Shown: in pieces, positions 43,428 through 46,789 of the stretch | Position numbering within the stretch: the first letter of the stretch is position 1 | Layout: each line of letters begins with the position of its first letter | Source: Dyella terrae | GTDB taxonomy: Bacteria > Pseudomonadota > Gammaproteobacteria > Xanthomonadales > Rhodanobacteraceae | Assembly: GCF_004322705.1 (NCBI RefSeq) | Contig: NZ_SIZZ01000001.1 | Span: forward strand, 1,240,001 to 1,304,000 | Length of the DNA: 64,000 nucleotides | Direction: 5' to 3' | Notes under the pieces: generated by a model | Told to the model about the DNA's origin: nothing | What the model saw: the letters and a program-made list of their open reading frames with translations, nothing else | Databases searched by the model: none | Made by a program: the position numbers and the translations under genes

Positions 43428-44457
43428 GCGCGTGGATATGGGCGGCTACTCGTTGATCGAAAATGCTCCACTGGGTCAGCGCAACACGCTGCGCGTCAAT
43501 GCGCGTGCGCGCTTGCTGGCCGAGATCAGGGAATCGGCGAAGCTGCCGGAAATCCTGGATTTCCCCGCGGTTCGCCAGGGCAAGCTGCTGGTCCTTGGCG
43601 AAGGCAGCAACATGTTGTTCACCGGCGACTTTGACGGCACCGTCCTCGCCATGGCGACGCGTGGCGTGCATGTCGAGGAAGATGGCGACATCGCGCGTAT
43701 TGCCGTAGCCGCCGGCGAGCGTTGGGATGATTTTGTCCGGTGGACGCTGGGCCAGGGCTTTGCGGGCCTGGAGAATCTCATTCTGATTCCCGGCACCGTG
43801 GGTGCGGCACCGATCCAGAACATCGGCGCCTATGGCACTGAGGTCGCGGAGTTCATCGAGAGTGTTGAAGCCTGGGACACGAAGGAGCGCCGCGTTGCCG
43901 TGCTCGATCGCCAGGCGTGCGCCTTTGCATACCGGGACTCCGTGTTCAAGCACGAGCCGGGGCGCTATATCGTCACCGCCGTGAAGTTCGCGCTGCCGCG
44001 TTCGCGCGAGCTGCGACTGGACTACGCGGGCATTCGTGAAGAACTGGCGCGCATGGGCATCGAGCGGCCGGCGCCGTTCCACGTTGCCGAAGCCGTCGTG
44101 CATTTGCGGACGCGCAAGTTGCCGGACCCGGCCGTGATTGGCAATGCCGGTAGCTTTTTCAAGAATCCCATCGTCGATGCCAGCGTGGGCGAGGCTTTGA
44201 AGGCCGCGCATCCGGAGTTGGTGTCGTGGGTGGGATCGGATGGACGCTGGAAGCTGTCGGCCGCATGGTTGATCGAACAGGCCGGATTCAAGGGTGACCG
44301 CGACGGCGATGCGGGGATTTCGAATCGTCATGCGCTGGTGCTGGTCAATCACGGCCAGGCGACAGGGCCGCAGCTTTGGGGCTTTGCACAGCGTGTGATT
44401 GAAGGCGTGCGCGGAAAGTTTGGCGTGACGCTGGAACCGGAGCCGGTGGTGGTTTGA
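43417..44457 (+). CDS. murB: UDP-N-acetylenolpyruvoylglucosamine reductase
   Basis: A 346-residue FAD enzyme that reduces the enolpyruvyl group to make UDP-MurNAc for peptidoglycan. FAD-binding features are [17 protein letters not shown] and [20 protein letters not shown]. The catalytic set is Arg in [10 protein letters not shown], Ser in NAGSFFKNP and the C-terminal Glu in LEPEPVVV, as in type I MurB of E. coli. The start at 43417 has GGAG at good spacing and overlaps pyrD; an ATG at 43438 would remove seven residues. The stop codon TGA is also part of the first copy of the downstream tandem repeat. Confidence 0.96.
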
Positions 44458-44873
44458 GGCTTGGCTCATGCGTGGTCGCCGATGGATTCCGGCTTTCGCC
44501 GGAATGACATCGAGATGAGAGTCTTTGCCTACCTAGTGCAGCTACCGCGTCTGATGGTGCGTTTCCGTCGCAGCTTGAGGCTTGGCTCATACGTGGTCGC
44601 CGTGGATTCCGGCTTTCGCCGGAATGACGTCGAGATGAGAGTCTTTGCCTACCTAGTACAGCTACCGCGTCTGATGGTGCGTTTCCGTCGCAGCTTGAGG
44701 CTTGGCTCATACGTGGTCGCCCGTGGATTCCGGCTTTCGCCGGAATGACGTCAAGATGAGAGTCTTTGCCTACCTAGTGCAGCTACCGCGTCTGAGGGCG
44801 CGTTTCCGCCGCAGCTTGAGGCTTGGCACATGCGTGGTTGCCGATGGATTCCGGCTTTCGCCGGAATGACGTC
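44454..44873. repeat. tandem array of a ~121-bp unit, about 3.5 copies
   Basis: Units begin at 44454 (121 nt), 44575 (120 nt), 44695 (121 nt) and 44816 (partial, about 58 nt). Each starts TTGAGGCTTGGC and carries a 20-nt palindrome about 32 nt in. The rest, with GTCTTTGCCTACCTAGT and GTCTGATGGTGCGTTTCCG, is nearly identical between full units, with only a few base differences. The array begins on the murB stop codon. The units are too long and lack the spacer/repeat structure of CRISPR. They look like recent duplications of a palindrome-bearing interspersed element. Confidence 0.9.
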
Positions 44874-45231
44874 CAGTTGAAAACCAACATTACTCCTGAA
44901 CGCTGTTCACTCCGATAGCGCGACCGGTCAGTCGAGGTCACTCTTCATGTCGTCATTCCGGCGAAAGCCGGAATCCACTGGCGACAAGGCACATCCGAAC
45001 GAAAAATCACACCCTGCGTCTACATTCACGCGGAAAGTCTGAGGTGATACCGGAGTCTGAGTTGGCAGTAGATTGAGGCGACCTTTCAGCGCGGTCGCCC
45101 CTGGATTCCGGCTTTCGCCGGAATGACGTCGCGTTGAGGATCGGCCTTACTCCTGAACGCAGTTCACGCCGATAGCGCGACTTTTCAGCCGGCGTCACGC
45201 TTCATGTCGTCATTCCGGCGAAAGCCGGAAT
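44486..45231. repeat. seven copies of a 20-nt REP-like palindrome
   Basis: Copies with arms ATTCCGGC and GCCGGAAT lie at 44486-44505, 44606-44625, 44727-44746, 44848-44867, 44955-44974, 45105-45124 and 45212-45231. The loop is TTTC in five copies and GAAA in the fifth and seventh, so those two are inverted. Flanking bases are conserved too (GG before and GAC after in the forward copies). This is the REP-like element often seen scattered through proteobacterial genomes. All arms appear perfect, which suggests selection or recent spread. Confidence 0.93.
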
Positions 45232-45289
45232 CCACTGGCGACAAGGCATGTCCAAGCGAAAAATCACCCCCTGCGTCTACATGCTTGCA
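44846..45289. repeat. two copies of a paired inverted-palindrome module, 257 bp apart
   Basis: Module 1 has palindromes at 44848 (forward) and 44955 (inverted); module 2 at 45105 and 45212. In both the spacer between palindromes is 87 nt and shares TTACTCCTGAACGC and CCGATAGCGCGAC. After the inverted copy both read CCACTGGCGACAAGGCA and then the first codons of a GIY-YIG gene. Module 2 leads into the intact gene at 45248, and module 1 into a decayed copy. This is a REPIN-like composite joined to a gene. Confidence 0.85.
44991..45027 (+). pseudogene. 5' remnant of a second GIY-YIG gene
   Basis: About 37 bases align with the first 12 codons of the GIY-YIG gene at 45248-45284. Shared stretches are GAAAAATCAC and CCCTGCGTCTACAT. 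The start codon is changed from ATG to ACA. After CTACAT the sequence no longer resembles the gene and runs into the next palindrome at 45105. It is a truncated, untranslated relic. Confidence 0.7.
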
Positions 45290-45559
45290 AGTCGGCCCCA
45301 AGGCACGCTTTACATTGGCGTGACCGGCAATCTTCTGAGGCGCGTATGGGAGCACCGGACATACGTCGCTGACGGCTTCACAAAGCGGTACAACATCCAC
45401 CAACTCGTGTGGTTCGAAGAACACCCCATCATGATGTCCGCCATCAAACGCGAGACGAACCTCAAGGACTGGCGCCGTGCTTGGAAGTTTCAACTGATCC
45501 AGGCTGAGAATCCCCATTGGGAGGATCTCTACCCTCGCCTGCTGGATGATTCCCGTTGA
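45248..45559 (+). CDS. small GIY-YIG domain nuclease
   Basis: A 103-residue single-domain GIY-YIG protein (UvrC N-terminal-like, the UPF0213/YhbQ neighbourhood). The motif reads as CVYMLAS then GTLYIGVTGNLLRRVWEHR, with the catalytic-type Tyr residues and Arg. The segment GFTKRYNIHQLVWFEEHP and the later Glu in AIKRETNLKDWRR are as in the family. It directly abuts palindromic repeats: the last palindrome ends 16 nt before the ATG. Its stop is adjacent to the convergent MFS gene stop. The cellular role is unknown; a link to the repeats is a hypothesis. Confidence 0.9.
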   Translation: MSKRKITPCVYMLASRPQGTLYIGVTGNLLRRVWEHRTYVADGFTKRYNIHQLVWFEEHPIMMSAIKRETNLKDWRRAWKFQLIQAENPHWEDLYPRLLDDSR

Positions 45560-46789
45560 TCACGCCCTCTTTCGCCTCCCCTCTACATCCGGCAAAAACA
45601 CCGTCGCCACGCCAATCAACGGCAGATACGCACAAATCTGATACACGTAATCGATGCCCTGTGCATCCGCGATCCGCCCCAGCACCGCGGCACCGATGCC
45701 GCCCATGCCGAACGCAAATCCGAAGAACAAGCCTGAGATCATCCCCACGCGCCCCGGGATCAACTCCTGCGCGTAGACGAGGATGGCCGAGAAAGCCGAT
45801 GACAGGATCAGGCCGATAATCACCGTAAGCACACCGGTCCACATCAGGCTGGCATGCGGCAGCAGCATCGAGAACGGCGCCACGCCCAGGATCGACACCC
45901 AGATCACCCACTTGCGCCCCACGCGATCGCCCACGGGCCCGCCGATCAGCGAACCGGCCGCCACCGCAAACAGGAACACGAACAAATGCGTCTGCGCGTT
46001 CTGCACGGACACGCCGAATTTATGGATCAGGTAGAACGTGTAATAGCTGCTGAGGCTGGCCAGGTAGAAGTACTTGGAGAAGATCAACAACCCGAGAATC
46101 GCCAGGGACCACGCCACCTGCGACTTCGTCAGCGAGACATCCAACGCATGCCGCGCCCTGGGCTTGCCGCGCACCGCATGATGCGCCGCATACCATTTGC
46201 TCACCTGCACCAGCACCACGATGGCCAGCAAGGCGGCAAGGGAGAACCACGCCACGCTACCCCGCCCATGCGGCACGATGATCCATGCCGCCAGCAACGG
46301 CCCCAACGACGCCCCCGTATTGCCGCCCACCTGGAAGAGCGACTGTGCAAGGCCATGCTTGCCGCCTGAAGCCATGCGCGCCACTCGCGACGATTCCGGA
46401 TGGAACACCGAGGAACCGGTGCCGACGAGTGCCGCAGCCACCAGCAACACCGTGAAGTTCGGCGCCGTCGCCAACAGCAGCAATCCGCACAGCGTGAACC
46501 CCATGCCAATGGGCAGTGAATACGGCATCGGCTTGCGATCGGTCACCATGCCGACCAGCGGCTGCAGCAACGACGCCGTGATCTGGTAGGTCAGCGTGAT
46601 CAGGCCCACCTGGGCAAAGCTCAGGTGGAAGCCGTCCTTGAGGATCGGGTAGATCGCCAGGATCAACGACTGGATCATGTCGTTGAGCAGATGCGAGAAG
46701 CTGATCGCCCCAATGATCCCGTATTCGGTGGCGTGTTCCTGCCGGGCGGCCGGAGCGGAAAGCTGCACTTCTTCGACGCGGGTTTGCAT
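45560..46789 (-). CDS. MFS transporter (Fsr/fosmidomycin-resistance type)
   Basis: A 409-residue, 12-helix drug exporter of the major facilitator superfamily. It resembles E. coli Fsr: ISFSHLLNDMIQSLILAIYPILK in helix 1, PLVGMVTDRKP in the loop 2-3 motif, and VGTGSSVFHPESSRVARMASGG in helices 4-5. GGPVGDRVGRKWVIW is the second-half loop motif. The start at 46789 removes a 39-residue N-terminal run that looks non-coding. It is divergent from an AraC regulator, which probably controls it. The substrate is not known. Confidence 0.92.
   Translation of the reverse strand: MQTRVEEVQLSAPAARQEHATEYGIIGAISFSHLLNDMIQSLILAIYPILKDGFHLSFAQVGLITLTYQITASLLQPLVGMVTDRKPMPYSLPIGMGFTLCGLLLLATAPNFTVLLVAAALVGTGSSVFHPESSRVARMASGGKHGLAQSLFQVGGNTGASLGPLLAAWIIVPHGRGSVAWFSLAALLAIVVLVQVSKWYAAHHAVRGKPRARHALDVSLTKSQVAWSLAILGLLIFSKYFYLASLSSYYTFYLIHKFGVSVQNAQTHLFVFLFAVAAGSLIGGPVGDRVGRKWVIWVSILGVAPFSMLLPHASLMWTGVLTVIIGLILSSAFSAILVYAQELIPGRVGMISGLFFGFAFGMGGIGAAVLGRIADAQGIDYVYQICAYLPLIGVATVFLPDVEGRRKRA

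Follow-up and report, generated by a model that had tools for sequence, protein, structure and literature searches.

At the 3′ part of the region considered here, the window (the whole 64-kb stretch of DNA that was analysed) carries a gene for a small GIY-YIG nuclease, its end bordering on the 3′ terminus of an MFS gene. Seven perfect palindromes of the form ATTCCGGC-TTTC/GAAA-GCCGGAAT lie between 44486 and 45231, all of them upstream of this open reading frame. No other perfect hairpin (stem of at least 8, loop of 3-6) in the window has the sequence of these seven, making chance an unlikely explanation, and a degenerate form of the pattern (up to two mismatches) occurs at 102 sites in the window's own genome as against 0 for the reversed control. 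With its flanks the palindrome reads CGTC-ATTCCGGC-loop-GCCGGAAT-CCA. The features are the following.

45248-45559, forward strand: GIY-YIG nuclease gene, 103 residues, Pfam PF01541
45208-45231, forward strand: 5′ CGTC-tagged REP of the gene-bearing unit (CGTC and palindrome, then the CCA tail), 16 bp before the ATG
45208-45559, forward strand: gene-bearing unit as present, 5′ REP and gene, without a 3′ REP
44951-45128, forward strand: outward-tagged REP dimer, CGTC[pal]CCA..TGG[pal]GACG, with 5′ UTR and about 35 nt of the gene start
44951-44974, forward strand: REP, CGTC tag on the left
45105-45128, reverse strand: REP, GACG tag on the right
44848-44871, reverse strand: REP, GACG tag on the right
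44727-44750, reverse strand: REP, GACG tag on the right
44606-44629, reverse strand: REP, GACG tag on the right
44486-44509, reverse strand: REP, GACA tag on the right
44454-44843, no strand: tandem array of three repeats of about 120 bp, each with one right-hand REP end (D1)
44832-45282, no strand: 257-bp tandem duplication of REP, 87-nt gap, REP, 17-nt stretch and gene start (D2)

A preliminary description of this DNA had reported two modules, each made of a forward and an inverted palindrome, a common 17-nt stretch and the start of a GIY-YIG gene. Read directly and recomputed, the palindromes concerned are located at 44848-44867 and 44955-44974, and at 45105-45124 and 45212-45231; the reported spacing of 87 nt inside each pair and the module offset of 257 bp are exact, and the 17-nt stretch CCACTGGCGACAAGGCA follows both inverted copies identically. 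Three further perfect palindromes, at 44486, 44606 and 44727, are located upstream of these modules. The duplication itself is borne out (a direct repeat of 194 nt, 44832-45025 and 45089-45282, with 87% identity), but not a nuclease gene in both modules: the whole gene is present in the second only, and the first retains approximately the first 35 nt with an altered ATG, after which the sequences diverge. Nor does the 87-nt pair hold as the unit. Its CGTC tags face inwards, whereas in the relatives (80 loci, the best of at least 586) the nearest tags most often point outwards on both sides of the gene (30 of 80), and inward tags on both sides come next (14 of 80), the gene then often lying between two dimers. 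Since a gene inside an outward-tagged pair is the commonest layout, the inward pair was rejected as the functional unit and is read as the gap between units within a local tandem duplication. The dimer at 44951-45128 seems, from its sequence, to be an internally deleted gene-bearing unit. Around and behind the gene end, the 460 nt scanned (45541-46000) contain no tagged palindrome.

The palindromes of the window are CGTC-1 REPs of Di Nocera, De Gregorio and Rocco 2013 (PMC3733652), as this class is defined in the available part of that paper: they have the CGTC (or TGTC/CCTC) tag, the 8-bp stem starting with AT, the 4-nt loop and the CCA-like tail, and the head-head dimers with outside tags that prevail in the class are found in 9 of 20 own-genome regions. 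These 20 REP regions were fetched and counted by hand. The nine contain 11 dimers in total of the form CGTC[pal]CCA-spacer-TGG[pal]GACG; six regions hold solo palindromes with a tag on each side, CGTC[pal]GACG (one of them mismatched), and the remaining five show other arrangements, such as lone single-tagged, tandem or inward copies. Six dimers out of the 11, among them three near-copies of one another, carry the motif GTCGCC at the inner right end, as does the window dimer 44951-45128. In the text available to us, PMC3733652 equates Neisseria dRS3 and Rickettsia RPE-6 with CGTC-1, treats the CGTC REPs as one of the two major superfamilies among the palindromic repeats of bacteria, places REPs mainly between and behind genes, and states that CGTC elements "seem lacking a dedicated transposase", no RAYT being flanked by CGTC units. 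Outward dimers are thus common there as here; the difference is that no dedicated enzyme is reported in that part of the paper, whereas here a gene lies inside dimers. The hosts it names include Neisseria, Azospirillum lipoferum, Sinorhizobium meliloti and Novosphingobium aromaticivorans, and all four recur among the plasmid-collection homologues of the nuclease. The term GIY-YIG has 0 occurrences in its text.

The assignment of the 103-residue protein to the GIY-YIG nucleases is secure, with a PF01541 match at E 5.1e-11 and 43.1 bits (cut-off 22.6). Other Pfam domains were absent at E up to 1; there is no match to an HUH tyrosine transposase (IS200/IS605-like) and no C-terminal DNA-binding domain (NUMOD), leaving a single-domain protein. 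Tyr11, Tyr22, Arg32 and Glu69 are invariant in 18 of 18 aligned homologues, and we take these to be the residues with catalytic roles in GIY-YIG nucleases. Sequence matches in the PDB are weak, the UPF0213 protein (1zg2) at E 0.26 and an SLX1 homologue at E 0.36. Purifying selection is indicated by dN/dS values of 0.08, 0.10, 0.20 and 0.08 in four gene pairs, which are rough because dS is at least 1.6 in three of the four; a fifth pair is nearly identical. Besides this gene, the 4.22-Mb own genome contains one more with PF01541, which is UvrC-like and lies in a 621-residue open frame. Broken copies occur as well, with a premature stop in G012 (L011) and a one-base gap in TYG73 (L218). Carriage by phages was considered and dropped, no match being found in phages.

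Among 61 genomes of relatives, 26 match the protein, 19 of them with a single match. Hairpins lie close to many of these homologues, and their arms vary between genomes; one genome has three gene copies with palindromes unlike in arm or loop. No perfect stem of 8 was seen at four of these loci (L004, L016, L023 and L024), and none at the weak matches L025-L028. The 80 loci mentioned above, the best 80 of at least 586 relatives in a species-genome collection, were chosen by a protein scan and therefore represent the nearest relatives by protein, picked regardless of REPs. In them, perfect hairpins (stem of at least 8, loop of 3-7) crowd around the gene: the first 100 bp on its two sides have 7.05 and 7.54 per kb, and stretches at a distance of 1-10 kb have 0.28-0.44 per kb. 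A tagged palindrome is present within 250 bp in 76 of the 80, on both sides in 57; a contig end truncates three of the four exceptions (L042, L097 and L098), and L090, with full flanks, is a true miss. The preliminary description had named enrichment near homologues as a check of its proposal, and this enrichment is found: once the six loci with less than 250 bp of flank on a side are omitted, a tagged palindrome is present in 73 of 74 loci and on both sides in 57 of them, compared with 12.2% and 0.66%, respectively, of 7300 random places drawn from these loci. The chance floor of the definition is given by 593 matches in the loci and 253 in the reversed sequence. Flanking by the REP type that the enzyme would serve, as in RAYT and the REPtron, is thereby observed for the nuclease gene.

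A second set, 29 loci from a sample of Pseudomonadota, gave a lower rate, with the tag rule satisfied in 20 and on both sides in 12. The nine untagged loci comprise two with an offset tag (L211, L216), two with a different palindrome (L202, L208) and five where no palindrome was seen (L196, L201, L207, L210 and L215). In L202 and L208 (family code f58) the GIY-YIG copies are flanked by ACCCGGAATC-tcga/tcta-GATTCCGGGT without a CGTC tag, which is perhaps a second REP type served by this gene family. That the association might be common to any GIY-YIG gene was rejected on the controls from the same genomes: none of the 19 other small GIY-YIG genes, and none of the 17 uvrC genes, has a tagged hairpin (stem of at least 7) within 250 bp. 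These 36 controls were picked from a longer list with REP-bearing genomes preferred. Two doubtful members, L167 (38% identity) and L184, were set aside and have no tagged palindrome; the clade copies L182 and L183 have one on both sides.

The arms of the palindromes follow the gene. Beside it, 25 arm types occur in 76 rows, and on the gene tree the arm type changes 35 times, compared with a mean of 53.3 and a minimum of 48 in 300 shuffles, a signal that includes a contribution from host relatedness. Taken alone, the 20 rows from other phyla than Pseudomonadota give a weak signal, with 9 changes as against 10.7 in shuffles. The 80 loci, best of at least 586, carry 13 phylum labels, which follow the record titles, and many of them are on MAG contigs. 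Common arms and spacing are shared by L058, L061 and L112, labelled Thermodesulfobacteriota, Myxococcota and Nitrospirota. Transfer of the gene between phyla is suggested by these sequences, and no more than suggested since the gene tree (93 columns) is poorly resolved.

The preliminary description further asked whether palindrome numbers depend on the presence of the gene, and this holds as a tendency. At E 1e-10 the gene is present in 102 of 398 Pseudomonadota genomes. When genomes are called REP-rich if matches to the 8-4-8 pattern outnumber those to its control by 8 or more (both strands summed, lists read by eye), the gene is found in 45 of 74 REP-rich and 57 of 324 other genomes (Fisher p 5e-13, uncorrected for kinship). 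On the other side, 29 of the 74 REP-rich genomes have no match to the gene at E 1e-10, and in 25 of the 29 a profile at E 1e-5 likewise finds none. Of the 102 genomes with the gene, 57 fall short of the REP-rich threshold for the 8-4-8 palindrome, which other REP types explain in part. The proposed likeness to REPINs and their RAYT, with a GIY-YIG enzyme in the place of the transposase, accordingly stands as regards both the palindromes beside homologues and the higher frequency of the gene in palindrome-rich genomes, but the dependence is not strict.

On these sequence comparisons, the GIY-YIG protein is probably (we would put it at about 0.7) a dedicated partner nuclease of CGTC-tagged REPs and a functional counterpart of RAYT. 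The natural unit takes the form CGTC[pal]CCA-gene-TGG[pal]GACG; its tags point outwards and its ends are those of gene-free REP dimers with a short spacer. We infer that this unit is a minimal mobile element or a domesticated form of one. By analogy with RAYT and REPIN, the most likely mechanism is that the nuclease would recognise a CGTC-tagged palindrome that is folded or cruciform and cut there, after which host repair would rejoin the ends; cutting and repair could then copy gene-free dimers (CGTC REPINs) in trans. Such dimers may arise from a gene-bearing unit by internal deletion, as the dimer at 44951-45128 would illustrate, and solo palindromes may arise when the interior between two palindromes is lost. 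The further step, an undescribed class of mobile element in which a nuclease of about 100 residues is the sole protein, CGTC palindromes serve as both ends and target, and its own movement as well as the spread of gene-free dimers comes from cuts in folded palindromes that host repair joins, is more tentative, and we hold it somewhat short of even odds.

Sites at which the gene is present in some genomes and absent from others bear on this. In Sphingobium plasmids, the site from fnrL to a response regulator has the gene in 7 and lacks it in 4 of 11 records (at least 80% query coverage), of which TYG46, TYG71 and TYG73 with the gene and the four without it were aligned. The filled alleles read CGTC ACCCCGGG..CCCGGGGT CCCGCT-gene-AGCGGG ACCCCGGG..CCCGGGGT GACG (GACA in TYG46). 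A gene-free allele with one double-tagged palindrome is found in TYG64 and, mutated, in TYG74; in the aligned alleles of TYG72 and TYG65 no palindrome was seen. A clean insertion polymorphism of a dimer was also sought in Sphingobium plasmids, and its one candidate was discarded, as two gene-free alleles have another repeat and the fifth aligns poorly. At L247 (near 41,700) and L249 (near 41,100), both on such plasmids, a GGCCCTGAGCCTGTCGAAGGGC-type repeat occupies the place where relatives have a CGTC dimer. The S. meliloti and Rhizobium sites offered no clean empty site, their differences lying within REP arrays, and neither a target-site duplication nor a clean empty junction was established in the Sphingobium plasmids or at the family site described next.

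At this family site, termed site A, the gene is present within the window's genus in G001, G003 and G004, and it was also found in G459, G454, G025, G014 and two Dyella strains (L048, left flank only, and L070) when 61 genomes of the family were compared (59 plus G002 and G005). The 5′ REP of G004 is interrupted, another repeat of about 60 bp lying inside its right arm (L252, L276), and it may be remarked in passing that REPs may themselves be insertion targets. Where the gene is absent, G000 has a decayed REP and a solo palindrome, G002 a solo whose tags are changed yet symmetrical, and G005 a decayed solo; G018, G467 and G469, for example, have 47-49 nt only and no REP. The decayed solos of G002 (L253) and G005 (L255) keep symmetrical arms (CGGC/GCCG and CGCC/GGCG), which suggests that one arm is corrected against the other or that the hairpin is under selection. 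Frequencies are not given for site A because in 30 of the 61 genomes the downstream flank could not be matched automatically (mismatch of at least 6, or contig end). Site A holds 9 of the 10 rows of one unstarred clade of the gene tree, and grouping the seven first-named site-A rows together is not rejected (p 0.08). The gene at site A is therefore probably old and vertically inherited, as judged from its sequences, and for this reason its solos are more likely losses than targets and the evidence for recent mobility is only indirect.

The unit of the window is private. Behind murB, none of the other five genomes in the genus has a ATTCCGGC-type REP within about 1.5 kb, where three loose matches with a mismatch occur, and their gene copies, where present, sit elsewhere. 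Among the five, G001 was seen to keep the MFS neighbour close behind murB. In its murB-MFS gap (L261) there is an inverted repeat, TAGGAGCGCACAGGGTGCGCTCCTAC, where the window has the REP unit.

Could the gene instead move by homing? The nuclease would then cut the double-tagged solo CGTC[pal]GACG, and repair would copy the gene in, using the end palindromes as homology; the filled site, having single-tagged palindromes only, would be immune. The filled and solo Sphingobium alleles do have the same outer tag and palindrome, GIY-YIG enzymes include homing endonucleases (PMC1564403, in the part available), and double-tagged palindromes account for 2 of 210 beside the gene, a lower share than the 14 of 341 more than 1 kb away (Fisher p 0.036), although the latter set contains many chance matches. 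However, the direction between the Sphingobium alleles is unsettled, no DNA-binding domain beyond the GIY-YIG match was found, and the site-A copies of several genera look like one old lineage, so that solos there are more simply losses. The solo palindrome as ancestral target was favoured at first and was weakened by the site-A gene clade; homing is regarded as unlikely, though the best of the alternatives to a RAYT-like partner nuclease. It is improbable, to a clearly greater degree, that the nuclease merely resolves hairpins or cruciforms of CGTC REPs and is kept because REPs harm replication, with no spreading involved. The single match in 19 of the 26 matching relatives, the purifying selection together with long residence at site A, and the two weak PDB matches, one of them (SLX1) to a structure-specific nuclease, are consistent with such a role; a host repair gene, however, would have no need to lie within the repeats or to have matching arms, nor to be multicopy or missing from many REP-rich genomes. 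Finally, a gene functionally unlinked to the REPs, whose intergenic ends attract repeats spread by another enzyme, would accord with the mainly intergenic position of REPs in the available part of PMC3733652 and with the 12.2% of random places already positive, but it is strongly disfavoured by the both-sided layout, by arm types that follow the gene and by the lack of tagged REPs at all 36 control genes (small GIY-YIG and uvrC) from these genomes.

The unit proposed for the partner nuclease shares traits with several known systems. Like REPIN/RAYT (the REPtron with GTAG REPs), it has short tagged palindromes, often as inverted dimers, with an enzyme gene between copies, but the enzyme is a GIY-YIG nuclease without a Pfam transposase match and the tag is CGTC rather than GTAG. 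GIY-YIG homing endonucleases of the I-TevI type belong to the same catalytic superfamily and are likewise present or absent at one site; here, in contrast, no intron or intein is seen around the gene, there is no NUMOD and the ends are REPs. Proteins like UPF0213/YhbQ are also single-domain GIY-YIG proteins of about 100 residues, whereas no tagged REP adjoins any of the 19 small GIY-YIG control genes. MITEs and their parent insertion sequences similarly comprise a long form with the gene and shorter derivatives that keep its inverted ends, but here the end is itself palindromic and there is no transposase. A link between GIY-YIG proteins and REPs was not found in the open-licence PMC literature, as judged from joint mention of the two in one paper and from titles and the openings of abstracts, and none is mentioned in the available parts of PMC1564403 (where "palindrom" occurs 0 times), PMC12306157 and PMC6006769.

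The nuclease is a strong candidate for the missing partner enzyme of the CGTC REPs, which have been described without a dedicated transposase since 2013, as far as the accessible text of PMC3733652 goes. With a candidate enzyme named, the origin and spread of these repeats become testable. If the partnership is real, REP systems had at least two origins, based on unrelated enzymes, and a function would be gained for many genes annotated only as "GIY-YIG nuclease family protein"; were the mobile-element class real as well, it would explain CGTC REPs across phyla, dRS3 of Neisseria included.

Two minor observations concern replicons with homologues. NZ_CP119140.1 and NZ_CP119142.1, of about 2.17 Mb and filed as plasmids of N. 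gonorrhoeae, look chromosomal from their size alone. On pSymB of S. meliloti (L113, 2359-3360) a GIY-YIG gene lies among units that have 9-bp CTC-tagged palindromes and an inner palindrome, GCGCCGC-gtct-GCGGCGC; by megablast there are 27 such places on the replicon, the one at the gene among them.
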